A stretch of DNA of 64,000 bases from Pyrinomonadaceae bacterium (GCA_026129865.1 JAHCHG010000016.1:1-64000), one strand, 5' to 3'; positions 11,950 to 31,554 are shown, counted from the stretch's first letter. Notes: generated from the sequence alone by a model not told the origin. Program-made: numbers and translations.

Positions 11950-13599
11950 TTAATTTTTGAGCTTTTCCATAGCCTCTTTCAAACTCTGTTTTTCGCTCAA
12001 AACTCCGCTGAAAATATCGCCTTTTTTCTTCAGCCGTTTTACTGCATTCGCGATCGAAAAATCTTCCGTCGCGATCTTCTTTTTCTCTATCTCCGACCAT
12101 TCGACCGGCATTGAAACCGTAGCGCCCGGTTTTGGTCTGACCGAATACGGTGCGACGACCGATTTGCCGTAAGTGTTCTGCAAATAGTCGACATAAACCT
12201 GTGTTTTCTTTCGTTTAGATTTGCTTCGCTCGACCGTGGCGATCTTCGGCGCCGCGTCTGCAACGCGCCCGGCTATTGCTTTTGCAAGCTCTAAGACATC
12301 GTCAAATTCATATTCAGCCTCGATCGGGACATAAACATGAATACCGCGCGAACCCGAAGTTTTTGCAAAACTTTCCAGACCGACCGCTTTTAACTCGTCG
12401 CGCGCCAGAACCGCAACTTCGCAGATCGTCGAAAAATCTACCTTATCGCCCGGATCGAGATCGAAAACGAACCAATCCGGCGTTTCCAGCCGACCGATTC
12501 GCGCGTGCCACGGATGCCGCTCGATCGCGCCGAGATTTGTTACGTAAAGATGCGTCGCCAGATTGTCGCAGACGATGTAATCGACGATATGCGCGCCGCC
12601 GTCTTCGGCTTCGAGGCTCGCCGTGCGGACATATTCGGGAACCTTGTCCACGTCGTGCTGGTGAAACGAATCGTGTTCGACGCCGCGCGGGTAACGCTTC
12701 ATTATAAGCGGGCGATTTTTCAAATAAGGCAGAATGACGTCCGAAACTTCCGCGTAATAGCGAAGCAGATCGGCTTTCGTCAGATCTTCCTTTTTCCAGT
12801 AAACACGGTCGAGACTCGTTAATTTCAATGCGAAACCGTCGGCTTCGACACGCGCGTCTCCCTTGAGATCTTTTTTCTTCAAAAATTTTTCGACCGGCTC
12901 GAGTTTTTCGCCTTTTTTCATCCTGGCGCTTGTTTTTTCGACCTCGACGTCGTCCTTGGTGTCCGAACTTTTCCTTGATCTCCGGCGCCGCTTTTGCGCG
13001 CCGCCCTCGATAAATTTGTTTCCGTCCTTGTCCGGTATCAGCAGTTCGAGCCGCCAGTCGTCCTCGGCAAACTCGTCGCGCCCTTTTACCAGAAGCCATT
13101 GATCGGTCTTGCCCAACCGGAAGAGATTAAACTCGCCTTTCAGCTTTTTGCCTTTTAGGACAAACTGCATCTTGCCGTTTTCAAACTCTTCCTCCGGCGG
13201 CGCGCCCGACGTGATCTCGTATTTGCCGATGTCCCACTGCCGGTGTTCGCCCGCGCCGTAGCTTCCCTCGGGGATCGTGCCCTGAAAATCCTTATACTCC
13301 ATCGGATGATCTTCGGTCGGCACCGCCAAACGCTTAACCGCCGGATCCATCGAAGGACCCTTCGGCACCGCCCACGATTTCAAAACCCCTTCTATCTCAA
13401 GCCGCAGATCAAAATGCAGCCGCGAAGCATGATGCTCCTGCACAACAAACCACCGCTCATCTTTACCAGATTTCCCGCCGCTCTTCTTAGCACTCGATCT
13501 CTTCGATTTTGCAGTCTTCGAGCCCTTACCCGCAGCCTTCCCCTCCGGCTCCGGCGTCTTCTTAAAATCTCTCTTTTTCCGATACTTCTCGAGTGCCAT
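11950..13599 (-). CDS. ligD: LigD-type DNA repair protein: 3'-phosphoesterase plus polymerase domains, no ligase
   Basis: A 549-residue non-homologous end-joining enzyme. A lysine-rich tail (1-45) precedes the 3'-phosphoesterase domain (about 48-170; FVVQEHHASRLHFDLRLEI, YGAGEHRQWDIGKYEI), a basic linker (200-240), and the archaeo-eukaryotic primase-type polymerase domain (about 255-540; metal-binding FDLDPGDKVDF, KTSGSRGIHVYVPI, VVAPYSVRPKPGATVSMP). The central ATP-dependent ligase domain of classic LigD is absent. The order PE-Pol suits a split system whose ligase and Ku are encoded elsewhere; neither is in this window. Confidence 0.93.
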   Translation of the reverse strand: MALEKYRKKRDFKKTPEPEGKAAGKGSKTAKSKRSSAKKSGGKSGKDERWFVVQEHHASRLHFDLRLEIEGVLKSWAVPKGPSMDPAVKRLAVPTEDHPMEYKDFQGTIPEGSYGAGEHRQWDIGKYEITSGAPPEEEFENGKMQFVLKGKKLKGEFNLFRLGKTDQWLLVKGRDEFAEDDWRLELLIPDKDGNKFIEGGAQKRRRRSRKSSDTKDDVEVEKTSARMKKGEKLEPVEKFLKKKDLKGDARVEADGFALKLTSLDRVYWKKEDLTKADLLRYYAEVSDVILPYLKNRPLIMKRYPRGVEHDSFHQHDVDKVPEYVRTASLEAEDGGAHIVDYIVCDNLATHLYVTNLGAIERHPWHARIGRLETPDWFVFDLDPGDKVDFSTICEVAVLARDELKAVGLESFAKTSGSRGIHVYVPIEAEYEFDDVLELAKAIAGRVADAAPKIATVERSKSKRKKTQVYVDYLQNTYGKSVVAPYSVRPKPGATVSMPVEWSEIEKKKIATEDFSIANAVKRLKKKGDIFSGVLSEKQSLKEAMEKLKN

Positions 13600-13831
13600 T
13601 TGTGTCCGTTTCGTTCTTTTTCCATACAGAAAACTCTATCTGTCAAATCGTTGCAAACGAAATGCCCAAAGAACATTAAATTTCGAAAAACCGAACGAAT
13701 GAAAAAGCTGATTAAATTCTATCGATTTTCTTCAACCTTACTCTACTTAAGTGTTGATCTGGCATCTTTTTAATAAGTTGAGAATTCGCATATACTATCG
13801 AGATCAAAAATAAAGGACCGTAAATTCCCCG

Positions 13832-15559
13832 ATGATAAATGCCACTAAAGAACAGCTCAACTCGTTTTTTTCAAGCAATTTGCAATATGTTGTACCTTTT
13901 TTCCAGCGAGCCTACGTTTGGGATGTCGAAAACTGGGAGATATTGTGGGACCACGTCAGCGAGATTGCGGATGTCTCGGAAGAGTCAACTCGTTCTGAGC
14001 ACTTTATCGGCACTGTAATTATGAAACAGCGTACAGCTACTAATATCGGAGAGAACAAGCACGATCTCATCGATGGGCAACAGCGGCTGACGACATTTTC
14101 TTTACTTTTAAAGGCGATTGCGAATACCGCTAGCGGAGAAGCTCCCTATCCAAAACTCGCTGATAAAACAAATGAACTGTTGGTATTCGAAGACGCTAAG
14201 GGTAAACAGTTTATCCGCTTGGAGCATTCGAAGAACGATTTGGAATATTTTCAAGCTGTACTACTCGATTACGATCTTTCCACCTTGCAAAATCAAGAGC
14301 ATCGAATCTTAAAATGCTATGAGTTCTTTAAGAAAAAAGTAGAAGGCTTTTCCGACGAAAGGCTAGATAATCTCAAATCAGTAATCCTCACGAATGTTCC
14401 TTTAATTAGCATGTTATTAGCGGCGGATGACGATGAGCAAGAAATATTCGACACAATTAATTCGCTCGGGGTTAGGTTGACGACGGGGGAATTGTTAAAA
14501 AACTACATATTTTCCGATACCGCGATCCGGGAAAAGTTCTCCGAGCTTTGGGAACCAGTCTTCGAAGATGACGAAGAGCAAATAAACTTTTGGAATCGTC
14601 CTAAGACCTCCGGTCGAGTTTTACGTACTAATATTGAGGTTTTACTTTACTGTTATTTGGTGATTCAGAAAAAGTCCAACGTGGAACTCGAGCGACTATT
14701 TAAAGAATACAAGACGTGGCTTAGTCCGAAACCCGTTGATGAAAAGCTCGACTTCCTCAAGGAACTGAAAGAATATGCAGGAATCTTTTTTGGTTTCCCT
14801 GAAGGTACGCAACTTAATGAAATCAAGTTTTCTCAACATGAGGAAAGGTTTTTTCATGTCATCGAAAAACTCGAAATCACCACGGTTTATCCGTTAGTTC
14901 TTTATCTATATAAACGAGTTGGTGATAAGGCTTCTCTAATTCAAATGCTAGGCATTCTCGAAAGCTATTTAGTTAGACGCCAGGTTTGTCGACTCTCAAC
15001 AAAAAATTATAACAATGTGTTTATTCAAATGATCAAGGAGCTGGACATGCTTGAGGAGATATCAGTGGATAGATTCAAAGACATGTTCGATAGTTTTACA
15101 CTAGATACAAACCGATTTCCTTTAGATAGCGAGTTCAAAGATGCATTTTCAAGCCAACCGATCAGTAACGTAAATGCACGGGAAATTCTTTTTTGCATAT
15201 CTCTTTACCACATTCACAACCCGATGAATGATGTCGGGTCCCTAAGTTCATCGAGTTATACTGTTGAACATATTATGCCGCAAAAATGGGAAGACCACTG
15301 GAAGGTTGAAGAGATGAACGACCTTTCCAAACTTGAACGAAACCGGAAAATCAAAACCCTCGGGAATCTAACACTTGTATCGCAAAACCTAAATAGCAGC
15401 ATGAAAAATGCAGCTTGGGAAGTTAAAAGGGTCGCCTTAAAAAACTTCTCACTCCTTAAGATAACTAGGGAATATGTAGAAAAACCAGAATGGAACGAAT
15501 TTGAAATTGACACGCGAGCTGCGGAGTTAGCATCAGCTGCTTTGCAGATTTGGCGCTAG
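13832..15559 (+). CDS. GmrSD-type (DUF262-DUF1524) defence nuclease
   Basis: A 575-residue single-chain protein. The N-terminal DUF262 domain (about 1-230) carries FFQRAYVWDVENWEILW and the nucleotide-site motif LIDGQQRLTTFSLLLKAI (near residue 80). The C-terminal DUF1524 domain carries the His-Me-finger nuclease motif YTVEHIMPQKWEDHW (near 477) and LGNLTLVSQNLNSSMKNAAW. Fused GmrSD enzymes are type IV restriction nucleases that cut glucosylated hydroxymethylcytosine phage DNA using NTP; other DUF262 proteins serve in BREX or as stand-alone defence. Codon use is more A/T-rich than in the neighbours, suggesting transfer. It is the left-most defence gene of the island. Confidence 0.9.
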   Translation: MINATKEQLNSFFSSNLQYVVPFFQRAYVWDVENWEILWDHVSEIADVSEESTRSEHFIGTVIMKQRTATNIGENKHDLIDGQQRLTTFSLLLKAIANTASGEAPYPKLADKTNELLVFEDAKGKQFIRLEHSKNDLEYFQAVLLDYDLSTLQNQEHRILKCYEFFKKKVEGFSDERLDNLKSVILTNVPLISMLLAADDDEQEIFDTINSLGVRLTTGELLKNYIFSDTAIREKFSELWEPVFEDDEEQINFWNRPKTSGRVLRTNIEVLLYCYLVIQKKSNVELERLFKEYKTWLSPKPVDEKLDFLKELKEYAGIFFGFPEGTQLNEIKFSQHEERFFHVIEKLEITTVYPLVLYLYKRVGDKASLIQMLGILESYLVRRQVCRLSTKNYNNVFIQMIKELDMLEEISVDRFKDMFDSFTLDTNRFPLDSEFKDAFSSQPISNVNAREILFCISLYHIHNPMNDVGSLSSSSYTVEHIMPQKWEDHWKVEEMNDLSKLERNRKIKTLGNLTLVSQNLNSSMKNAAWEVKRVALKNFSLLKITREYVEKPEWNEFEIDTRAAELASAALQIWR

Positions 15560-15681
15560 TTAGATAAAAGTCTTTTTAGTAAATTAGGGTGCACACAATT
15601 CAAATTTGGATTTTAGCAAGTTTTCGAAAAGATGAAGGTCGCCTTTTCCATCACCTTAATCGTCGGAAGCCGTAGAACTGA

Positions 15682-16146
15682 CTAGTTTGGTTTCTTTTTT
15701 GCGCGGGTTTTCGGTTTCTTTTCCAGCTCCGCCGTTTTGACGAAGGTTACGAGCGGCAAAAGCACCGCGGGATATGGGCTTCGGCGTGTGACGGTTGCAA
15801 CAATCTCGCGCGAGGTTGAATAAAGCACTGCGGGACAATTGGTTTCAGCCAAGAGTTTCGAATGTTCTTTCGTCATTTCGGGATGCGTTTTGAAAAACCC
15901 CACCATTACAATCTTAAAGTTGTAATAAGGATTACTTTCTGTTTCGGAGTCAGCCGATTCAATTGTTAATTCGCACCGCCAGTCGCTATTTTCGTTGGTT
16001 GGAATAGTAATGTCCGTGATTTCCAAACCGACCGGTTCTATTGACTCAACGTCCTCGGGAATTTGCTCTAATCCATCCTTGACGGAATAATGCATTTCTT
16101 TCAAGAAATACGTCAAAAGCTGTAGATGTGAAACTGTTGCTGGCAT
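15682..16146 (-). CDS. SecB-like chaperone of a toxin-antitoxin-chaperone module
   Basis: A 154-residue protein resembling SecB. The C-terminal part NCPAVLYSTSREIVATVTRR followed by SPYPAVLLPLVTFVKT matches the SecB signature in which a conserved LYPYxRE..I..LTxR stretch leads to a PPL/LLP..F strand; the middle (DWRCELTIESADSETE and YNFKIVMVGFF) fits the beta sheet. A Lys-rich tail follows. Solitary SecB-like proteins encoded behind a toxin-antitoxin pair act as antitoxin-specific chaperones, for example Rv1957 of M. tuberculosis. This gene is third in the minus-strand unit, seven bases after the antitoxin. The assignment rests on motif resemblance. Confidence 0.72.
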   Translation of the reverse strand: MPATVSHLQLLTYFLKEMHYSVKDGLEQIPEDVESIEPVGLEITDITIPTNENSDWRCELTIESADSETESNPYYNFKIVMVGFFKTHPEMTKEHSKLLAETNCPAVLYSTSREIVATVTRRSPYPAVLLPLVTFVKTAELEKKPKTRAKKKPN

Positions 16147-16153
16147 TTTAATT

Positions 16154-16816
16154 CTAAGCGCAAGGGGCTAATTCCTGATTAACATTTGCGTGATAAATCG
16201 ACGAATGTCTCGGTACAATCCTTACATTTGCCAAAGGTTCAAATGGCAGTGTTTTTGCCTCGACATATGATGCTGAAGGCTCTTTTAAAATAGCTGAATC
16301 ATCCGGCAGATACTTAGCTGGAGCTTCCGGGTTTTCCGCATTGATTACGATTACAAAATCGGTCTCGCTTGCCGGTGTCAGATTCAAAACGGTTTCCAAA
16401 TGTCGCGCCAACTGAACATTTTCCGGGTCCTGCTGTTTCAATGCGTTAAGAAAATTGACCCGCGCCAGCGTTTCTACTTGAGCAGATATTTTACGGTCGC
16501 CTGACTCCAACCGGGCATAATGCGCCCCGGCGACGCTGATCCTTTTTGACCATTCTTGCACTTTCAATCCGGCGATTCGACGCAAAAAACGCAAATCGGC
16601 ACTTGAAAGCTTTGCATTTTGTAAAGCGATCGCAACCCCTATCGCGTTGTGCAATTTCTTTAGATTTCGCAAAAGCGGCGTTTCGGTTTTACAACCACGG
16701 CATACCTCAACCTCGACATTAGCCAAAACGATGTTATCCAAGCTTACGCCCGTATACTTAAACGCTTTATATTTTTTGATTTCGCACGTTTCGTCACATT
16801 CAAAACATTTCGTCAT
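16154..16816 (-). CDS. MqsA-like antitoxin: zinc finger, helix-turn-helix and long C-terminal extension
   Basis: A 220-residue protein. The ATG at 16816 has an AGGAGAAAGG ribosome site and gives MTKCFECDETCEI. Two CxxC pairs (CFEC, CRGC) form a YgiT/MqsA-type zinc finger (1-50). An HTH of the Xre type follows (about 65-130; LRFLRRIAGLKVQEWSKRI, VAGAHYARLESGDRKIS). About 80 extra residues lie beyond the HTH (PASETDFVIVINAENPEAP onward). In TAC systems such an extension is the chaperone-addiction segment that makes the antitoxin unstable without its SecB-like partner. It lies between the toxin and chaperone genes, overlapping neither by more than the usual operon spacing. Confidence 0.8.
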   Translation of the reverse strand: MTKCFECDETCEIKKYKAFKYTGVSLDNIVLANVEVEVCRGCKTETPLLRNLKKLHNAIGVAIALQNAKLSSADLRFLRRIAGLKVQEWSKRISVAGAHYARLESGDRKISAQVETLARVNFLNALKQQDPENVQLARHLETVLNLTPASETDFVIVINAENPEAPAKYLPDDSAILKEPSASYVEAKTLPFEPLANVRIVPRHSSIYHANVNQELAPCA

Positions 16817-16827
16817 TTTCCTTTCTC

Positions 16828-17142
16828 CTACCAATCTCTCGCGATAACAGTAACTGCGATTACGCGCCAGGTCTCTTCAATAATATTCACAATCACGCTG
16901 ATCTTTTCGGCATCGGTGTCATATCCGTTAACTTTATACTTAAATTTTTGATGCTTTTTGTCCCATTCCGGCTTGCTGTTAATAATCCCATTTTCCTCGA
17001 GCACGAGTCTTATATCCACGTCATCAACAGTGCGTTCGCCCATTCTGACGTAACAATGATCCCGGATTTTCAAGTAGCCGTCGTTGAGCAGAATTTCACG
17101 AATTTTTTCGATGGCGGTTTGCGAATCGTAAGGTTCGGGCAT
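16828..17142 (-). CDS. DUF4258-family toxin
   Basis: A 104-residue basic-fold protein with the DUF4258 pattern: a helix then KIRDHCYVRMGERTVDDVDI (His, then ERxxxxxDI), RLVLEENGIINSKPEWDK, and the strands FKYKVNGYDTDAEKISVIVNI and TWRVIAVTVI. DUF4258 proteins are RelE/MqsR-like RNase-type toxins usually paired with MqsA-like zinc-finger/HTH antitoxins, as here. The ATG at 17142 lies 12 bases after a GGAGG. It is the first gene of the TAC operon; paired palindromic operators lie upstream. Confidence 0.8.
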   Translation of the reverse strand: MPEPYDSQTAIEKIREILLNDGYLKIRDHCYVRMGERTVDDVDIRLVLEENGIINSKPEWDKKHQKFKYKVNGYDTDAEKISVIVNIIEETWRVIAVTVIARDW

Positions 17143-17218
17143 TTTTGGGAAAATCCTCCATTGCTTACTTTGGGTCTTGAAAACTCAAAAAGTAACATAA
17201 ACGCCTCCATTAAGAGTA

Positions 17219-17266
17219 TTGACATATTGGAAGACAAATTGTCAATCTTTTCTGACAGATTGTCAA
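17219..17266 (-). promoter_or_regulatory. Paired operator/promoter of the TAC operon
   Basis: Two near-palindromes, GACAAATTGTCAA at 17233-17245 and GACAGATTGTCAA at 17254-17266, are spaced exactly 21 bp (two helix turns). A related half-site (TTGACATATTGG region, 17219-17230) lies on the gene-proximal side. Read on the minus strand each copy contains TTGACA, so the repeats overlap likely -35 boxes; with the first TTGACA a GACAAT lies 17 bases downstream. Autoregulation by the HTH of the MqsA-like antitoxin is the natural explanation, but this is inference. Confidence 0.55.
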
Positions 17267-17302
17267 CCCGAATGGCTAGCCTTAAATAGGTTACTTTTGG
17301 TT

Positions 17303-20300
17303 TTATTTAGTTCTTTCTTGAATCCACATCGTTAATTCGTGTCCTGTTTTCTCGTCAGCTTGATTGCCGTTGCGGACGTATAATTTGCCGTCGTAATAGG
17401 TTGGCGTTTTTGATGATTTTGCATCAATTCGGTAGACGATTCCTTCGGGTAAATGTTCAAATGAAATATCTATTAAACCTGTCGGGGTTGGGCTTAGATG
17501 ATCGCGGATCATGTTTTGGATCTTTAACTGGAATTGGTCTTTTAGTTCATCGTTGGATTCATTGCCTGTATTTTTCAATACATCTAAATCAGATTGAATG
17601 CCTTTGATGTTGCCGGAATCGTCCACGCCGAGCAGGATTGTTCCGCCGTCGGCATTGATGAACGAGGCAATTGTTTTGAGAGTTGATTTTGAAACGTCCG
17701 AGTTTTTATTGCCGAGTCCGTCAACCGCAAAAAATTCCTTGAAGTCCAATTTTTGATGTTCAAATTCGGCGATGAGTTTTGTAACCGGATGCGAAGTCCA
17801 ATAACTCGGCGGTTTTGATAAAAGCAGATCGCAATGAGCGAGAAAGTCTTTGTGCCGTTCTTTTACTTCGCTCGTGAAACCCTGCGCTTCGGCTAGTTTT
17901 GCATAACGCCGGCAATACCAAATTTCCACTTCCCGAATGTCTTCCGGCGATAAACCGTAAAGTTCGTAAACCAATTTATCAATCTCTTTTTGTTCGTATA
18001 GATGATACGGATATTGTAGATTTTCTTTTTGTCTATCAACAATAGCATTAACAAGGTTCTCTATCTTTTCTTTATCTTCATTTGATAACTTAACGAGTGG
18101 CGTGTTGAATAAAACTTCTTCGCCTGTTTCAACCGTATGAGAAAGATAATTTTTTAAGCTGTAACGAACAAAAGTTGATGCCAATTTTCCTAAAATATAA
18201 TTTGACACTTCTTTATTAAAAAAAATTGTAGAACCTTTATTTCCAAAAATAGCCTTACATCCAAGGCGAAAAGTTGGACTGTAAATTCCAGTAGGTGAAA
18301 AAGTTAAACCAAAACGAAAGTAGTATTGAGGATTACGAAAAACTGCTGCTGTTTTATTTTCATCTCCTGCTTTTATTTTGCTTTCCTCTCCTTTTCTTCG
18401 TTTAACATCAGCAATTTTTGCTGTTCTTAAACGGTTAACGGCATTTTTCGACCAATCAATAAAATATCCTGTCGGAACGTGATAATTCGGAAGCCAACCT
18501 TCACCTGATTCGCTTTCACCGCCTTTATCAAAAGGTAGAAAATGTTTTCCGTTGTAATCATCGGGATTTATTCCGTTTCTTTTTTCATCTTCGCTCAAAT
18601 TTGAGATTTCTTCATCGCTCAACAATTTGCTTTCGTCCAAAATCTCGTAACTGCCGCGAACGCCTTCGCGTTTTCGCAGATAATACTGATTATCGGCAGT
18701 CGCCAAACCTTGTTTCACATCGGCAATATCGCCGAGTTTTGTAAAACGCCCGTCGCTCATCAATCTATAAAGTTCGGGCGAAGCGATAAAAAACGAAAGA
18801 TTGTCGTAAGTCGAAATCAGACTTTGCGGATAAGTATAGCGTGCGTAATCGAGCGTCTGCGCGTCGTAGCCGTGTTCGGCGACAGCTTTGAGATTTTCTT
18901 CGAGCATCTGCCAATCGTAATTCGGCAAATTGCGTAAATCTCCGGCGATAACTTCGTGTTTTTCATTCGCCGTTTTCCTGACAACCGTCAAAATGCAGGT
19001 GTTGACCGTCGCATCGAAAATCCACGGCGGAAGATCGAGAAAATGTTTGACTGTGCATTGTTCGAGTATGCGGTGACGCAAAGGACGAAAACTTTTGATC
19101 GTCCGCCAAGTGTCGGACACGATGTAGCTTAAAACACCGTTCGGACGAAGAATCTGCAAACCGCGAGCGATAAAAATTCCGTAAGGGTCTTTCGACTGCG
19201 AACCCTGCGTATTATCGAAGTAAGCGTTCCGCGTTGCGTCGGAAACTTTCGTTCCGCCATACGGCGGATTAGCCAGAACGATATCAAATCCTCCTTCGCG
19301 TGTCGTTGATTCGACGGGCTGTGCTTCGGTCAATTTCGGCTGAATCTCGACATCGTTAATCAGCGTATGAGTTCCGTCAATCCGCCATTCGACGACTTTC
19401 GGTGAAAAGACTTCAGCAAATTCAATCGCCCAATCAAATGCATCGTCCGGCATTTTGGAAGTATCGTTTTGATGAATCCAAAATGAAATTTCCTCGCGCA
19501 GTTTTTTGATTTTTTCAAGAAGCTGTTTTTTGTGTTCGGCATCAAAGCGGTGTTCGATTGAAGACTTAAAGAATTCGGCTTTTGCTTTTTTATATTCTCC
19601 GATCTTTTCTTCGACTCCGCTGTATTTCGCTTTGTTAGGATTCGGCGCGGTCAAACTGTCGCCCTGTTCGATCTTGAAATCGAGATTCGGCAATGGTTCG
19701 GGTTTGTCGCCGTAGAAATCAACCGCCAAACTCAGCCACAAACGAAGCCTTGCGATCTGCACGGCGAAAGCGTCCATATCAACGCCGTAGATATTGTTTT
19801 GAATGATCTTGAGTTTGCGCTCGTAAATCTCTATCGGAGAATTGCTCGTTTTGGTGTCCAATAAAGCGGTGATAGTTTTGAGTTCCTGCAAAATTCCTAA
19901 AAGATACGCGCCCGAACCGCAAGCCGGATCAACTATTTTCACATTTTCCAGATGGCTTAAAAGTTTTCGTGCTTCGGGAATGGTTATGTCTTCATCGGAA
20001 TATTCAACGACCAGACGTTTTATTTTTTCGGCGTCAATTTTTGTTTCGGCAAGATAATTTTTCAGTGCTTCGCGGCACATAAACTGAACCACACGGCGCG
20101 GCGTGTAGTAACTGCCCGATTCGTTTCTGCCGGTAACGAGTTCTTCAAAAACCTTTCCGAGCATTTCCGGGTCAACGGCAATTTCGATATCAATCGGCGT
20201 AGATTCATCGACTGTGAAATTGTACCTCTCAAAGAAATTCAACAACCCATGGAAAAGCGCATTTTCGATTTCGACGCGGTTGGCTTCATCAAACCCATCA

Positions 20301-21211
20301 TCGTCTTTCTCGAATAATCCGCCGTTTAAATAAGGAACGTCACCGCGACGCTCACGCAAAATTCTTGATTGATGTAGATCAATATTTTCATTTACGCCTA
20401 AACCGGAAAAAAACAACCATCGGAGTCTGTCCTGATAAAAATTTTCGCCATTGTCTTCAGCTTCTGTAAAGAGCCTTCGCAGGTAATTTTTATCTTCTTC
20501 GTACGAAAGCCATCCCTTTTTCTGAAGAAAATATATGAACATTAACCGGTTAAATAATCTTTGTGTAAAGAGCCGTCTTTGTTCAGCCGCTTTCCGGTCA
20601 ATTTGCTTCGCATCGGGAATGCTTTGTTTAATTGCGGTTTCAAATTTGGCAAATACGTCTTTATAATCAGCGAAGAAATCCTTACTCAGTTTTTCAACCG
20701 AAAATGCTGCCTTTAGTGCAGGTAAGTTAATTGGTTTACCAACCAATAATTCGAATCGTTCCGCCGCCGTTCTAGTGTTTTCCCCTCTGCCGAAAAGATA
20801 TGTAAAGCGCTTTGGTTCGGTTTCCTCAATAATAATCTGGTCATTTGCATCGCGAATTCTAACTTCTGATATATAGCTAAATCGCCATTTATCGCCCTGC
20901 ACAAATACTACTAGCGCACCGTCAACATCGTATTTATAAATGCTTCTAAGAAGTTCACGCAAACCAACTTTGTTGCGTTCAATGTTCGGGTTGTCATTAA
21001 GATTGACTTGATAAATTCCGATCAGTCGATCGTCGCTCGTTTCAAGACTGCCGAGTTCAAAAGCGGATACCGCAATTTTATTCGAAGATAAAATCACGGG
21101 TTCGGGGTTTTGAAAAAGATTGGTGACACTGAAAACCTCCGTCAAAACATTGCGCCACAATGCAGGCTGGTATCCCTTGGAGAAAATTTGTTCGAGTTGC
21201 TGTTTGTTCAT
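17303..21211 (-). CDS. Large N6-adenine DNA methyltransferase fused to AlbA_2/Schlafen-like domain
   Basis: A 1302-residue protein. The N-terminal 380 residues are not assigned to a family. The gamma-class methyltransferase core has motif I VDPACGSGAYLLGILQEL (near 428) and catalytic motif IV DIVLANPPYGGTKVSD (near 648). A TaqI/Eco57I-like target-recognition region follows (about 800-1080; FTKLGDIADVKQGLATADN). The last 150 residues form an AlbA_2 domain (QKLDFKEFFAVDGLG, TIASFINADGGTILLGVDDS, LYVRNGNQ), the putative nucleic-acid- or ATP-binding fold shared with Schlafens. No obvious PD-(D/E)XK nuclease motif was found, so cleavage is probably supplied by the adjacent PLD-helicase 115 bases upstream. 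The combination is not a textbook R-M type. Confidence 0.85.
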   Translation of the reverse strand: MNKQQLEQIFSKGYQPALWRNVLTEVFSVTNLFQNPEPVILSSNKIAVSAFELGSLETSDDRLIGIYQVNLNDNPNIERNKVGLRELLRSIYKYDVDGALVVFVQGDKWRFSYISEVRIRDANDQIIIEETEPKRFTYLFGRGENTRTAAERFELLVGKPINLPALKAAFSVEKLSKDFFADYKDVFAKFETAIKQSIPDAKQIDRKAAEQRRLFTQRLFNRLMFIYFLQKKGWLSYEEDKNYLRRLFTEAEDNGENFYQDRLRWLFFSGLGVNENIDLHQSRILRERRGDVPYLNGGLFEKDDDGFDEANRVEIENALFHGLLNFFERYNFTVDESTPIDIEIAVDPEMLGKVFEELVTGRNESGSYYTPRRVVQFMCREALKNYLAETKIDAEKIKRLVVEYSDEDITIPEARKLLSHLENVKIVDPACGSGAYLLGILQELKTITALLDTKTSNSPIEIYERKLKIIQNNIYGVDMDAFAVQIARLRLWLSLAVDFYGDKPEPLPNLDFKIEQGDSLTAPNPNKAKYSGVEEKIGEYKKAKAEFFKSSIEHRFDAEHKKQLLEKIKKLREEISFWIHQNDTSKMPDDAFDWAIEFAEVFSPKVVEWRIDGTHTLINDVEIQPKLTEAQPVESTTREGGFDIVLANPPYGGTKVSDATRNAYFDNTQGSQSKDPYGIFIARGLQILRPNGVLSYIVSDTWRTIKSFRPLRHRILEQCTVKHFLDLPPWIFDATVNTCILTVVRKTANEKHEVIAGDLRNLPNYDWQMLEENLKAVAEHGYDAQTLDYARYTYPQSLISTYDNLSFFIASPELYRLMSDGRFTKLGDIADVKQGLATADNQYYLRKREGVRGSYEILDESKLLSDEEISNLSEDEKRNGINPDDYNGKHFLPFDKGGESESGEGWLPNYHVPTGYFIDWSKNAVNRLRTAKIADVKRRKGEESKIKAGDENKTAAVFRNPQYYFRFGLTFSPTGIYSPTFRLGCKAIFGNKGSTIFFNKEVSNYILGKLASTFVRYSLKNYLSHTVETGEEVLFNTPLVKLSNEDKEKIENLVNAIVDRQKENLQYPYHLYEQKEIDKLVYELYGLSPEDIREVEIWYCRRYAKLAEAQGFTSEVKERHKDFLAHCDLLLSKPPSYWTSHPVTKLIAEFEHQKLDFKEFFAVDGLGNKNSDVSKSTLKTIASFINADGGTILLGVDDSGNIKGIQSDLDVLKNTGNESNDELKDQFQLKIQNMIRDHLSPTPTGLIDISFEHLPEGIVYRIDAKSSKTPTYYDGKLYVRNGNQADEKTGHELTMWIQERTK

Positions 21212-21271
21212 ACGGTTTTGGGAAACTGTGTTGGCAGTGCGAACCTAACTTTACATATTAGCTGCTTTTTA

Positions 21272-21331
21272 GACGCCGATGGCGTCATTAAGTTTAAAAC
21301 TCTCAGCGCTGCTGAGAATGTTAAACTTAAT
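21272..21331 (-). promoter_or_regulatory. Double hairpin between helicase and methyltransferase genes
   Basis: Two adjacent inverted repeats fill the gap: a perfect hairpin GACGCC-GAT-GGCGTC at 21272-21286 and a 21-bp imperfect one with arms 21287-21307 and 21311-21331 around a three-base loop. The large hairpin touches the stop of the helicase gene. No T-run follows on the minus strand, so it looks like an RNA-processing or stabilising element rather than a simple terminator. Confidence 0.5.
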
Positions 21332-24300
21332 CAAAAAATGTCTCAGATAAGACTATTTCAGGTTCGATATTGGCAGAAATTTCGCTGTCTGAAGTTTCAA
21401 GCACATCATCGTCCTTTTCAAGCGCGTCATATTTTTTAGCTAAACGCATGACTAGGTTTTCAGCCTCACTGAACGTGATAGTTTTTTTGTCAGCTCTTAA
21501 TCCAATTTTCCTAACCTCTTTTGGAATTGGCGTATATACTCCTTTTTCCACTAATTCAATTAAGTTGTCATAAGCTAGTTTATTTTTCTTAATTTGAGTT
21601 TTTGACACTAATTCTCGAAGATATTTCTGCGCTTGCTTCGAATAACCGTCGGATTTGTCCTTGGCTGTAACGGTGTCTGTTTCAGTTCCAAAGAAATCTT
21701 TCTCAAACTCGTCCAAAGCGTTTTGGACATGACTATAGTGGTTTGCAGGAAGATCATACGCGGGTTCATTTGCGTTTGCTTCGAAGATCTCCGCAGCATC
21801 CAGGAACGTGAGACTTTGGACGGTTGTGGAATCATCCGCCAGATAAAATTCGGTTTTATATGGGGATTTTAAGAAAATGACGGTTCCGGGTTTGAAATCT
21901 TCTTTCTTTGCGCGCTTAAGATCACGAGCCGTTCGCGCCTTCAGAGGAAACTTCTTGATTCGCCGAAATTCATTCGGATGCGCGTCTTTAAATTCACGAA
22001 TAAATCTTAAGTAGATAAGGCGTTTGTCTTCGTCAGATTCAATTCCTTCCTTAAATAGCTCGAACTGTTCAACCAATTCTTCATGCGTATAAATCTGGGC
22101 GTCTTCGCCAAAAGCGGTGTGGAAACCTTGAAGTTTTACCAAAGCATTATTGTAGAGCCTAATAATACTGTCGCCCTGCGATGATGGGTAAAAATTGAAG
22201 TTATAGATAACCCCGGCGGCGCTTCCGATTCGATTTACACGCCCGATGCGCTGCATTAACCTCGTCGCATTCCAGGGCGTGTCGTAATTGATAATGACAT
22301 TCGCCCGATGTAAATTCACGCCTTCGGCTAAAACGTCCGTTGTGATCAAAATTTTATATTCGTCTTTTGGTTCGCCGATGTAGTTCGCGTCGAAATTCTC
22401 CTGGATCTGATTAAATAGGCGGTTTCTGTTGTCCGCAGAAACGTTCAAAACTTTGGTATCAGTTTTTGATTCGATCTGTTCGGATAAGTAATTTGCAGTG
22501 TCTTTGCTCTCCGTGAAAATGACTAGTTTTTCGGTCGGATTAATATCGTGTTTAAAGAATTCTTCGTCGAAGGATTTAAAAAACGCTTCAAGTTTCGGGT
22601 CTTGGTTAACGCTTTTCCATTTATCGCACAACTCTCTGAGGAGAACTTCATCTTTCTTTAGCAAATCAAGAAAATCCGGCTCAAAATCTTCTTTTTCAAA
22701 CACATTATTTCGCGGATTTTCAGCAGTTAATTCAAGTAGTTTTTCTTCGATTTCCTCAAGACTTAAGCCCTTATCGATTAAATTGTTTATGTTGAGATCA
22801 GGTGCGATCATCACCCGGTTTCGTTCAAACATCGCGATCATCCGCTGCGTGGAAACATGCAGATTATTTAGGGAAATTTTGAAAGCGGTGAAGCTGCTTT
22901 CGAGTCTTTTGACGAGCAGCGTTGTCATGATTCCGGCAAGAGATCTTCCAATAAGCGTTGCCTTTTCATATTCGAATGCTTCCTGATTTTCCTGAGTTAA
23001 ATACTCAATCGCGCGATAGCGGTAAAACCCAAGTTTCTTTGATAGATCTATTTTATTGCCGAAAGCTTCTGCTAACATCGAATTAACGCCTTCGTTATCT
23101 ACAAGTACGCTAAGTGTTTGATAGAATTTTAAATTGAGGTCTTCGTCGAGAAAATATTCTTTCGGACGCGGCGCGGCAATGTCCGGAAAAACAATTCCCT
23201 GTTCATTCAAATCATCAATATATTTTGGATATTTTTTTAAATCATTTCTGGTCCGGCGAACAGTGATCGTTTCAATTACCCGATGCCGGATTGTTGAATA
23301 AAGTTCGCGAATCCGCCCCAAATCAGGTTCAAAATCTCTGATAATTTCTTTGTATTCGCGAACGATTGGACCAAAGAAATTTTGTAGATTTGTCTCCGGC
23401 AATGTGCTTCTTCGAGCATCTTGAAAAAGCAAAAGCTGATAATACAGATCCTGCGGACGATTGTTCAGTGGCGTAGCTGAAATCAAGATAACCTTTTTCT
23501 TATTTCCCTTGATTAGTCCTTCTCCAGAGCGCGGTGACTTGCAGATACGCTGCAAATTATCGAACATTTGCGAAGTGTGATTGCGATAGCGATGCGCTTC
23601 GTCAACCAGAACAAGATCATACTCTTCTTTTGCCCAATATCTGTCGTCTGTTCCGTTTAGAATTTTTTCCAGCCGACCATTTGTAATAAATTTGCAGTGT
23701 TTATCGATCTTAAAATGATTAAAGGTTTGTCTCCAGTTTTTTTCCACAGCAGGTGGGAAAATTACCAGAATTTTTGTATTTAATGAACCATTTGCGATCA
23801 AAAATCGCTTCGCGATCATCGCTGCGACGACCGTTTTTCCAAGACCCACAACATCAGCGAGGAAGAAGCCATTATGTTCGAGCAACATTCCAAATCCTTC
23901 GTTGACCGCATCAATTTGATAACTGAGTTTTTTGAATGATTTAGGTAAATCGCCAACCGTGTCCGGGTCATAATCAATATTATTCCCGAAATACTCAATT
24001 AAAAATTTTATGTAGAGTTCATACGGAGTGAAATTTTGACCAATATGGGTCTTTTCTTTGAATTGCTGGATGTCCGCGGGAAGGATCGACGTCGATTCTT
24101 TCCAGAGCTCTTCGAACTCACGCTTTGAAAATTGGACATCGTCATAATCTTTCAGAGCGACATTTAGTTCATAATTTGGCGACTGTCTAATCCCAAGTCC
24201 GGCGCAAGTCAGATTTGACGAGCCCATGATCACCCAACCATCTGAATGAGCCGAATGTTTTTCGGGAAGAAACAAGTAAAATTTAGCGTGAATTGATTTT

Positions 24301-24686
24301 GAACTGTGAGCGCGAACTTCAATCTTCCCGTCTATCAGGTCATCAACAAATTGCAGTATTCCGTTTTCCACTTCTGCGGAATACTTTGCTTCTTTTATGT
24401 CTTGAATAAACCAGTTCAGAAACTCAGTCTTAGTCTTAGCGTGATCAGCGAAGAACAATAAGCCCTTGCGTTGCGCCTGCGCGAACATCTGGTCAACGTT
24501 GATTCCTACTAAAATTTTAATGTCTTTAATGTTCTTCAGATAAGGTTGAAGGGCAAAGTATCCGGATGAGCGGAAGTAACCGACTACTGCGTGCAGCGCG
24601 TGAAGATTGCTCATATTTTCAATAATTCCTGTGAACTTATCGAAAACATTTTTGTCTGTTTGATTAGTAAAAAATTTTGAAGACAT
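21327..24686 (-). CDS. PLD-nuclease / SF2 (SNF2-like) helicase fusion
   Basis: A 1119-residue protein. The N-terminus is a phospholipase-D-like domain with one HxK motif, SIHAKFYLFLPEKH (near 133) and GSSNLTCAGLG (near 157), typical of PLD nucleases. The helicase core has Walker A LADVVGLGKTVVAAMIAKRF (near 282), DEAH box VLVDEAHRYRN (near 362), motif III ILISATPLNNRPQDLYYQLL, and the C-terminal motifs TTDVLAEGVNLHRANVIINY and RLMQRIGRVNRIGS (near 818). PLD-helicases work as the ATP-driven nuclease arm of several defence systems, with a methyltransferase marking self DNA; the partner here is directly downstream. First gene of the minus-strand unit. Confidence 0.88.
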   Translation of the reverse strand: MSSKFFTNQTDKNVFDKFTGIIENMSNLHALHAVVGYFRSSGYFALQPYLKNIKDIKILVGINVDQMFAQAQRKGLLFFADHAKTKTEFLNWFIQDIKEAKYSAEVENGILQFVDDLIDGKIEVRAHSSKSIHAKFYLFLPEKHSAHSDGWVIMGSSNLTCAGLGIRQSPNYELNVALKDYDDVQFSKREFEELWKESTSILPADIQQFKEKTHIGQNFTPYELYIKFLIEYFGNNIDYDPDTVGDLPKSFKKLSYQIDAVNEGFGMLLEHNGFFLADVVGLGKTVVAAMIAKRFLIANGSLNTKILVIFPPAVEKNWRQTFNHFKIDKHCKFITNGRLEKILNGTDDRYWAKEEYDLVLVDEAHRYRNHTSQMFDNLQRICKSPRSGEGLIKGNKKKVILISATPLNNRPQDLYYQLLLFQDARRSTLPETNLQNFFGPIVREYKEIIRDFEPDLGRIRELYSTIRHRVIETITVRRTRNDLKKYPKYIDDLNEQGIVFPDIAAPRPKEYFLDEDLNLKFYQTLSVLVDNEGVNSMLAEAFGNKIDLSKKLGFYRYRAIEYLTQENQEAFEYEKATLIGRSLAGIMTTLLVKRLESSFTAFKISLNNLHVSTQRMIAMFERNRVMIAPDLNINNLIDKGLSLEEIEEKLLELTAENPRNNVFEKEDFEPDFLDLLKKDEVLLRELCDKWKSVNQDPKLEAFFKSFDEEFFKHDINPTEKLVIFTESKDTANYLSEQIESKTDTKVLNVSADNRNRLFNQIQENFDANYIGEPKDEYKILITTDVLAEGVNLHRANVIINYDTPWNATRLMQRIGRVNRIGSAAGVIYNFNFYPSSQGDSIIRLYNNALVKLQGFHTAFGEDAQIYTHEELVEQFELFKEGIESDEDKRLIYLRFIREFKDAHPNEFRRIKKFPLKARTARDLKRAKKEDFKPGTVIFLKSPYKTEFYLADDSTTVQSLTFLDAAEIFEANANEPAYDLPANHYSHVQNALDEFEKDFFGTETDTVTAKDKSDGYSKQAQKYLRELVSKTQIKKNKLAYDNLIELVEKGVYTPIPKEVRKIGLRADKKTITFSEAENLVMRLAKKYDALEKDDDVLETSDSEISANIEPEIVLSETFFD

Positions 24687-24913
24687 GCAATTCCGTTAGA
24701 TCTATTGAATTAGAAACTAAAAACAAAATGGGACTGAGATGTCGATTTCGGAAAAATTCGTGCCTTAAACACGCAAAGAAGATTTACGCACAATTTAGCG
24801 TGTAAGAATATGGAAATCAAGCTTCAGATATTTGCTTTTATTCTGAAATGCATTTCAAGGAATCGGAACGTCGGTAGGTTAAAGTCGAATCCGATACAGT
24901 TCCTAATTGTTCT
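24687..24913. other. Intergenic, upstream of the helicase gene
   Basis: No gene is supported here. An open plus-strand frame that starts at 24810 runs across the tRNA-Asn 3' exon and intron and is an artefact. The helicase promoter must lie here, reading leftwards, but I see no convincing -35/-10 pair. The sequence is A/T-rich like the island. Confidence 0.4.
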
Positions 24914-24944
24914 AAAAAAAGAAAAAGACGCCACAGGGGCGTCT
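24914..24944 (-). terminator. Rho-independent terminator of the tRNA-Asn gene
   Basis: Read on the minus strand, a seven-base-pair GC-rich stem (24938-24944 with 24926-24932, loop of five) is followed by a run of T broken by one C (24914-24925). It lies 14 bases beyond the encoded CCA of the tRNA. Confidence 0.8.
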
Positions 24945-24998
24945 CATCTAGATAAATTGGCTCCGCAGGTAAGACTCGAACTTACAACCCTTCGGTTA

Positions 24999-25551
24999 CA
25001 CTTTATCCCAAACTTTCGTTTGAGTGTGGACTATCTCATCAACTCCTTTTCAAGAGTTGTCGGACGCTATTTGAGATATTATTGGTCTGGTTTCCTCAAT
25101 CTCTAGTCTCTGCACGTTCCTGCTTACTCTTAAACCATTCAGCAGGCTTCGCTCAGGATTACCATTCTAATTTTCATTAGTGCAGGCTTCCCTGAATTCA
25201 TCCGATTTTTCAATCACAGTCGCCTGTGAAAGCTGCAACTTTCCGGCGTGGAATTCACGATGACAATTTGCACATAAAAAAACACATTTTTCAATTTCAT
25301 CTTTTACCTTTTCCCAACTTCTGGAATAACCTTTTGCGGAAATTCCGAAATCTTTCTTTGTCGGGTCTAGATGATGAAATTCAAGTGCCTCGATACAACG
25401 ATTGTAGCCGCAAATTTCACAACTACCGCCTTTGTATTCAACAGCCATCTCGCGAACTTTTGCTCTTCGGCGTTTAACTGCCTCGAGCAAATACTCTCTG
25501 CGCTGTTGATAAGTGCGCTTTTCTGCCATTGTAAAAGACCTTGCCTAGCTT
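24999..25551 (-). mobile_element. Group I self-splicing intron in the tRNA-Asn anticodon loop
   Basis: A 553-bp intron. Core elements on the minus strand: P4 UCAGG (25195-25191) pairs with CCUGA (25157-25153) inside the conserved AATCCTGAGCGAAGCC block, closely like the R segment of cyanobacterial tRNA-Leu introns; P7 GACUA (25108-25104, in GCAGAGACTAGAG) pairs with UAGUC (25033-25029, in GAGATAGTCC). A possible guide GCAG (25526-25523) would pair with exon CUGU, leaving the usual U-G at the splice site. P3 and P1 are not securely drawn. The intron carries an HNH endonuclease frame. Confidence 0.85.
25167..25529 (-). CDS. HNH homing endonuclease encoded in the group I intron
   Basis: A 120-residue protein: a basic helical N-terminus (KRTYQQRREYLLEAVKRRR), then an HNH/zinc-ribbon nuclease with CEICGYNRCIEALEFHHLDP and CVFLCANCHREFHAG (two CxxC pairs and the catalytic His). 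The ATG at 25529 is 22 bases inside the intron, and the stop at 25167 lies beyond the 5' strand of P4, so the last dozen codons double as ribozyme core. Such proteins cut intron-less alleles and drive intron homing. A weak AAGG precedes the start. Confidence 0.88.
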   Translation of the reverse strand: MAEKRTYQQRREYLLEAVKRRRAKVREMAVEYKGGSCEICGYNRCIEALEFHHLDPTKKDFGISAKGYSRSWEKVKDEIEKCVFLCANCHREFHAGKLQLSQATVIEKSDEFREACTNEN

Positions 25552-30893: not shown

Positions 30894-31199
30894 ATGGAGT
30901 TTGAATGGGACGAGAATAAAAATCTTGCCAATATCAAAAATCACGAAGGCGTTTCGTTTCAAGACGCGGTGAAAGTTTTTCACGATATTTGGTCAATCGA
31001 AGATTTTGACGAATCTCATTCAGCCGTTGAAGAAAGATTTTCGGTGATCGGTTTGGTTGAATATACGCTTTTGCGCGTGGTTTTTACATATCGTGAAACC
31101 GAAGCGGGAGAGCAAATTATTCGGATAATTTCAGCTTGGAAAGCAACGAGTAGAGACAAAGAAATTTATGAAAAATCCAGAAACCGATTCGACATCTGA
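30894..31199 (+). CDS. brnT: BrnT-family toxin
   Basis: A 101-residue RelE-fold ribonuclease toxin. The N-terminus MEFEWDENKNLANIKNHEGV and FQDAVKVFHD are the BrnT signature, and the C-terminus has IIRIISAWKATSRDKEIYEK with the conserved RIISARKA-type strand and terminal YE. BrnT inhibits growth by RNA cleavage and is neutralised by BrnA, whose gene overlaps it by 32 bases. Located in the guaA-bounded mini-island. Confidence 0.92.
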   Translation: MEFEWDENKNLANIKNHEGVSFQDAVKVFHDIWSIEDFDESHSAVEERFSVIGLVEYTLLRVVFTYRETEAGEQIIRIISAWKATSRDKEIYEKSRNRFDI

Positions 31200-31554
31200 A
31201 ACATTTGAAGCCGAATATACGGAAGCCGATATTCAGGAAATGCGCGATCAAGGTGTGAGTGAAGAAGATTTGCCAAGCGTCGGAAAACATACATTTCGGC
31301 GTTCGAGATTTATCGTTCCGCGCAAAGAACAAAAATTAAAAGTTACGATTATGCTCGATGCCGACGTTTTGGATTTTTACAAAGAACAAGCCGCCAAAGC
31401 CGGAAATCTCCCGTATCAAACTCAAATCAACCGCCAACTTCGCAAAGCTATGGAAAAAGCTAAAGACCCGAAAAGTCAGGTCGTTACCCTTGAGATGTTG
31501 GAAAATCCGGCTTTTCTTTCAAAGCTTGCCGACAAATTAAAAAAGGTCGCGTGA
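31168..31554 (+). CDS. brnA: BrnA-family antitoxin
   Basis: A 128-residue antitoxin overlapping brnT. The C-terminal ribbon-helix-helix is seen as KLKVTIMLDADVLDFYKEQA, then NLPYQTQINRQLRKAMEK. BrnA dimerises through the RHH, binds its own promoter and covers the toxin. The N-terminal 50 residues (EAEYTEADIQEMRDQGVSEE) are acidic and likely form the toxin-wrapping part. Both genes look intact. Confidence 0.88.
   Translation: MKNPETDSTSETFEAEYTEADIQEMRDQGVSEEDLPSVGKHTFRRSRFIVPRKEQKLKVTIMLDADVLDFYKEQAAKAGNLPYQTQINRQLRKAMEKAKDPKSQVVTLEMLENPAFLSKLADKLKKVA

Follow-up and report, generated by a model that had tools for sequence, protein, structure and literature searches.

The window, a 64,000-nucleotide stretch of DNA from a Pyrinomonadaceae bacterium, carries two neighboring genes for a PLD nuclease-SNF2 helicase and an N6-adenine DNA methyltransferase, a pair that looks like a widespread, unnamed bacterial antiviral defense. 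The two products quite probably form an ATP-dependent restriction-modification complex, resembling a split Type ISP or Type I enzyme, in which a PLD nuclease replaces PD-(D/E)XK and the AlbA_2 tail of the methyltransferase is an optional addition. The core pair was already noticed in 2018 on the Lactococcus plasmid pLd8, yet as far as we found it has neither a name nor an experiment in the literature searched. The core mechanism would be an ordinary one; what is of interest in this widespread and under-described system is the Schlafen-type tail fused to the methyltransferase, which is reused across restriction systems.

The locus and its two proteins

The initial annotation had described a PLD HxK nuclease joined to an SF2 helicase, beside a gamma-class methyltransferase with an AlbA_2 domain, and the open reading frames, Pfam assignments and motifs bear this description out (Table 1). 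The helicase gene lies upstream of the methyltransferase gene on the same strand, with a gap of 115 nt.

Table 1. Positions of the genes, domains and motifs of the locus within the window.
Feature	Position	Strand	Remarks
PLD nuclease-SNF2 helicase gene	21327..24686	-	1119 aa, intact ORF; presumed restriction/translocation subunit
PLDc_2 domain, residues 112-195	24102..24353	-	Pfam, E 7e-9
PLD HxK motif H133-A-K135	24282..24290	-	translation checked; invariant in 25-helicase alignment
PLD GSSN motif, residues 155-158	24213..24224	-	alignment and base-level check
Helicase Walker A ADVVGLGKT, residues 277-285	23832..23858	-	alignment and base-level check
Helicase_C domain, residues 714-821	22224..22547	-	Pfam, E 4e-19
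N6-adenine DNA methyltransferase gene, C-terminal AlbA_2 tail	17303..21211	-	1302 aa, intact ORF
AdoMet-binding motif I DPACGSG, residues 428-434	19910..19930	-	alignment and base-level check
Catalytic motif IV NPPY, residues 648-651	19259..19270	-	alignment and base-level check
Presumed target-recognition region, ~residues 800-1100	17912..18814	-	proposed from variable C-terminal region, exchanged by inversion in relatives
SLFN_AlbA_2 tail, residues 1151-1286	17354..17761	-	Pfam E 9.5e-16; E1151, D1156, D1198 match Schlafen13 active site
GmrSD-like (DUF262/DUF1524) gene	13832..15559	+	Pfam and PADLOC profiles; within low-GC island
Small HNH gene	25167-25529		in low-GC island region

In the helicase, Pfam also places SNF2-rel_dom at residues 260-485, and a DEAH motif is present; the ATPase and nuclease motifs (Walker A, DEAH and HxK/GSxN) are thus complete. 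The catalytic motifs were invariant or nearly so in an alignment of 25 helicases, and HxK...G[ST]xN was kept in 79 of 80 related proteins. The AlphaFold2 model (mean pLDDT 84.8) has an SNF2 fold, and its Foldseek matches include the solved PLD-helicase SauUSI (7clg). The best PADLOC model for this protein was the unassigned 'C3a139 HKD+Snf2' (161 bits).

Pfam assigned Eco57I (residues 472-727, E 9e-33), N6_Mtase and MmeI_Mtase to the methyltransferase. DPACGSG precedes NPPY and the recognition region lies downstream, which is the gamma order; both motifs were invariant or nearly so among 21 aligned methyltransferases. The same 21 homologues showed no conserved D/E-x-K in residues 1-170, and nothing before residue 170 was invariant. 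The chain therefore appears to lack a type IIG nuclease and should not cut alone as true type IIG enzymes do; the PLD partner would have to do the cutting. Membership of Type IIG was rejected on this ground, although PADLOC places the family in 'type IIG' (L074 scored 757 bits) and its best models for the window protein were the generic 'REase_MTase_IIG'. The AlphaFold2 model of residues 1-1135 (mean pLDDT 70) found BrxX/PglX as its best solved structural match, followed by MmeI and other gamma methyltransferases. A search of genome contigs with the whole methyltransferase returned only a distant Borreliella relative.

GC content is 40-44% across ~13.5-25 kb and 50-53% in both flanks, a drop of about 10 points. 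This is consistent with the low-GC stretch (13500-25000), which includes the pair, the GmrSD-like gene and a set of toxin-antitoxin-chaperone genes, being a probable acquired island. The GmrSD-like gene is probably a separate defense gene. The toxin-antitoxin-chaperone set (15682-17142, minus strand) comprises a DUF4258 toxin, an MqsA-like antitoxin and a SecB-like chaperone in tandem, with a weak likeness to PD-T4-9. Elsewhere in the window are a LigD-type protein that has 3'-phosphoesterase and primase-polymerase domains and lacks the ligase domain (11950-13599, minus strand) and a BrnT/BrnA toxin-antitoxin pair (30894-31554, plus strand). Promoter-like sites in the window did not exceed their frequency in shuffled sequence, and terminator-like sites exceeded it only slightly.

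Pairing, distribution and invertible specificity

A profile of the 25 helicases, used alone, was searched against 162 genomes of the class together with viral contigs. Thirty-seven helicases reached 750 bits or more; a related methyltransferase lay no more than three genes away in 35 of them and was immediately adjacent in 29. The two exceptions are a locus that runs off the contig end (L181) and a helicase that starts 763 bases from the end of a short contig, on which a methyltransferase was not seen (L115). Records of the pair come from Bacteroidota, Deinococcota, Cyanobacteriota, Bacillota, Thermodesulfobacteriota and Euryarchaeota, and it was found in bacteria, archaea, plasmids and prophage-like contigs. 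Examples include Prevotella, Parabacteroides, Thermus, Allomeiothermus, Pelobacter, Natrinema, Methanothermococcus and Lactococcus, as well as Deinococcus and Microcystis plasmids, in which other genes intervene between helicase and methyltransferase.

The two proteins also diverge together: across 58 pairs, helicase and methyltransferase pairwise distances were correlated (Spearman 0.546), while the maximum of 999 permutations was 0.219. Partners are sometimes exchanged, however. The helicase of L098 is 77% identical to that of the window and its methyltransferase only 40%, which indicates that the fit between helicase and methyltransferase is loose. On sequence evidence, the pair is a real and widespread system. 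The co-occurrence across phyla and the joint divergence uphold the view of the initial annotation that the two genes make up a restriction-modification system, and no named system in PADLOC matched both proteins.

Several relatives vary this arrangement. In a neighboring helicase subfamily (~700 bits), the adjoining methyltransferases carry a Type_ISP_C specificity domain, and in some relatives the methyltransferase is split into catalytic and recognition genes. One locus (L068:9496-12812) has the methyltransferase split over two genes that overlap, and a YaaC-like gene adjoins them. Other extra genes lying between or beside the pair include a YhcG-type PD-(D/E)XK protein (L098 and L103) and GmrSD (L076, L112 and L194). 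On a Microcystis plasmid, a SMODS nucleotidyltransferase and a SLATT membrane effector lie between methyltransferase and PLD-helicase (L195:9047-10514).

Five relatives (L089, L116, L121, L122 and L193) carry an inverted methyltransferase recognition fragment downstream of the methyltransferase and joined by inverted repeats, with an Mpi-type serine invertase adjoining the cassette. The repeats measured 291 bp at 98% identity (L121), 306 bp at 88% (L122) and 270 bp at 75% (L193). Neither an inverted recognition cassette nor a long inverted repeat was found in the window itself. Such cassettes point to phase-variable specificity in the methyltransferase family. A switch of specificity would be survivable only if restriction switched too, and the restriction subunit thus probably borrows the methyltransferase's reader. 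The cassettes support this sharing of one reader independently of the pairing of the two genes.

Proposed mechanism and comparison with known systems

In the mechanism that we propose, the C-terminal recognition region of the methyltransferase would read a short DNA site, and host DNA would be methylated there at adenine N6. When invading DNA is unmodified, this reader would load or activate the PLD-SNF2 helicase, which would move along the duplex, and cutting would take place at a dimeric PLD (HxK) active site. The AlbA_2 tail would most likely act as a secondary RNA-targeting effector or as a nucleic-acid sensor. This ATP-dependent restriction-modification model is favored because the motifs are complete, the pairing recurs, the distances are correlated and the methyltransferase has no nuclease of its own; the Type_ISP_C partners, the split methyltransferases, the invertible cassettes and the precedent of SauUSI favor it further. 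SauUSI forms dimers through the PLD domains, translocates along DNA and shreds it (PMC7913695).

The same precedent can be turned the other way. SauUSI, a Type IV ATP-dependent endonuclease that depends on 5mC, is the closest solved PLD-helicase and, like the window protein, has an N-terminal PLD HxK nuclease fused to an SF2 motor. The window helicase might accordingly be a SauUSI-like Type IV enzyme directed at modified phage DNA, next to a separate methyltransferase of the orphan or type IIG kind, and REBASE and PADLOC do class such methyltransferases as stand-alone type IIG (PMC6098607). SauUSI, however, carries a C-terminal SRA reader of 5mC and has no partner methyltransferase, whereas Pfam detected no SRA or other modified-base reader in the window helicase, whose C-terminal 250 residues carry no domain assignment and might hold one. 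The pairing in 35 of 37 loci with correlated divergence, the missing nuclease motif in the methyltransferase and the invertible cassettes, which imply that restriction uses the methyltransferase's specificity, also speak against a Type IV enzyme, and we regard it as improbable.

Less plausible still is a degenerate or minimal relative of DISARM or BREX. The domains of the locus do overlap with DrmD, DrmMI and DrmC of class 1 DISARM and with the HKD-SNF2 helicase and N6-methyltransferase of the Type-2 BREX-related system (PMC12839542), and the DrmD and PglX profiles gave weak matches; these NCBIfam scores nevertheless fell far under the cut-offs (140 versus 610 bits for DrmD and 173 versus 500 for PglX). 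BrxX/PglX (9ewz, 8c45), the best structural match of the methyltransferase, aligned over nearly its full length with a TM-score of only ~0.45, and PglZ (PF08665), which BREX carries, is absent from the genome. DUF499 (PF04465), which the Type-2 BREX-related system needs together with DUF3780 (PMC12839542), is likewise absent from the genome. The whole genome also lacks the DrmB domain DUF1998/MZB (PF09369), in agreement with the initial annotation, which had set the pair apart from DISARM; the neighbors include no DrmA-like gene, and no further helicase gene adjoins the pair. With these hallmark genes missing genome-wide, membership of DISARM, BREX and the Type-2 BREX-related system was rejected. 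Moreover, the bare pair is conserved alone in dozens of loci.

The preferred ATP-dependent restriction-modification complex has its nearest parallels elsewhere. Type ISP enzymes (LlaBIII type) share with the pair a motor, a gamma methyltransferase and a recognition region. They are single polypeptides with an Mrr-type nuclease, whereas the window system consists of two polypeptides, from two genes, and has a PLD nuclease; Type ISP membership was rejected accordingly. In the CglI and NgoAVII systems a PLD nuclease and an SF2 ATPase also cooperate and a methyltransferase gene is present, but the nuclease and ATPase are on separate proteins and the nuclease bears a B3 reader (PMC4267653). The bare helicase-methyltransferase pair is also present on Lactococcus pLd8 (orf33/orf34), where it was reported in 2018 as a putative restriction-modification system with DISARM-like domains (PMC6098607). 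As in the window, these genes and the related pair of pJM1F (L193) encode a protein with PLD, SNF2 and helicase C domains beside a 'type IIG' N6-adenine methyltransferase that lacks a nuclease domain; in the Lactococcus pLd8/pJM1F comparison the methyltransferase is ~31% identical to that of the window. Unlike the window, the pLd8 pair has no reported AlbA_2 tail (PMC6098607), and the pJM1F relative possesses the inverted recognition cassette and invertase.

The AlbA_2 tail

The SLFN_AlbA_2 match in the window scored 58.8 bits against a Pfam gathering threshold of 25.3, and an AlbA_2 profile matched rat Schlafen13 (5yd0) with an E value of 5e-11. Rat Schlafen13 is a tRNase with the catalytic residues E205, E210 and D248 (PMC5862951), to which E1151, D1156 and D1198 of the tail correspond, respectively, in the alignment. 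The active-site residues of the Schlafen13 tRNase core thus align with the tail; the window protein differs in having a single AlbA_2 copy, which is joined to a DNA methyltransferase.

The initial annotation had included the AlbA_2 domain in the proposed system; the wider sample does not place it in the core. Only three methyltransferases (window, L067 and L082) carried the fusion among about 60 pair loci. The window and L067 are sisters in the tree, while L082 falls in a different, well-supported clade, and the fusion therefore probably arose twice. In three further loci a separate AlbA_2 gene lies between or beside the pair: Prevotella L087, the related viral-collection contig L117 and Parabacteroides L088, the genes of L087 and L088 also carrying an HATPase domain. 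With three fusions and three separate genes among ~60 loci, AlbA_2 was rejected as a conserved third component. The interchangeable extras found at these loci (AlbA_2, YhcG-type PD-(D/E)XK, GmrSD, and SMODS with SLATT) support an accessory role.

The same subtype also forms the tail of other restriction proteins. A profile of ten AlbA_2 domains was searched against 396 genomes, in which the strong subtype (>100 bits) occurred in 29 places; the common chromosomal AlbA_2 domains scored below 81 bits. Twenty loci of the strong subtype were read. It formed the C-terminal ~165 residues of type I HsdR beside HsdS in L220, L221 and L225 (by Pfam), and four further proteins (L222, L223, L224 and L227) were judged HsdR-like with an AlbA_2 tail from their position and N-terminus. 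GmrSD (DUF262) proteins had a C-terminal AlbA_2 tail in L229:5112-7241 and L233:5744-8464 (by Pfam), with L230 and L231 alike by eye, and on plasmids in L197:5357-7492 and L198:5363-7489. Tails were also present on UvrD-like helicases (L228 and L234) and on a HARE-HTH protein (L232), and in a plasmid type I locus AlbA_2 occurred on an N6-methyltransferase (L196). The UvrD/AAA_30-type helicase of L228 (1417 aa, L228:4406-8659) adjoins a PLD-helicase and a Type ISP-like methyltransferase. Scanned against viral sequences, the AlbA_2 profile found a single locus, one already in the set. The tail is thus an addition that recurs at the C-terminus of restriction proteins, and its recurrence on HsdR, GmrSD and UvrD-like proteins makes it look like a portable restriction-modification add-on.

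What the tail does is a matter on which an RNase back-up and a sensing or tethering role appear about equally likely. One tentative and rather doubtful proposal is that this subtype is a portable effector, repeatedly added to the C-termini of HsdR, GmrSD, UvrD-like helicases and the methyltransferase of the PLD-helicase system, which would answer DNA recognition by cleaving tRNA and arresting growth once ordinary restriction has failed. That the tail is instead a module for regulation or nucleic-acid binding (for tethering, sensing or dimerization), with no RNase effector function, has close to an even chance. Regulators with HATPase_c_4 widely carry AlbA_2, and in the Prevotella versions encoded by separate genes the third acidic residue, D, is replaced by K. 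Against such a module, all three acidic residues of the Schlafen13 site were kept in seven of seven aligned tail-type sequences (six C-terminal tails and the 322-aa L199 protein), and the subtype occupies the C-terminal ~165 residues of HsdR, GmrSD and UvrD-like proteins, a position typical of back-up effectors. The E, D/E and D are nevertheless also retained in most of 20 chromosomal AlbA_2 domains sampled, stand-alone ones included; as housekeeping AlbA_2 proteins share the triad, it was dropped as a distinguishing mark of the tail and offers no specific argument for RNase activity. The tRNA binding or abortive infection put forward in the initial annotation may apply to the tail.

An uncharacterized restriction pair would seem to be common among prokaryotes, with specificity switching built into several relatives. 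The fused tail, a relative of the antiviral Schlafen proteins of humans, directly ties a eukaryotic antiviral tRNase fold to restriction enzymes. It raises the question of whether restriction systems may contain a built-in RNA-cutting back-up, which could be addressed by means of single-residue mutants.
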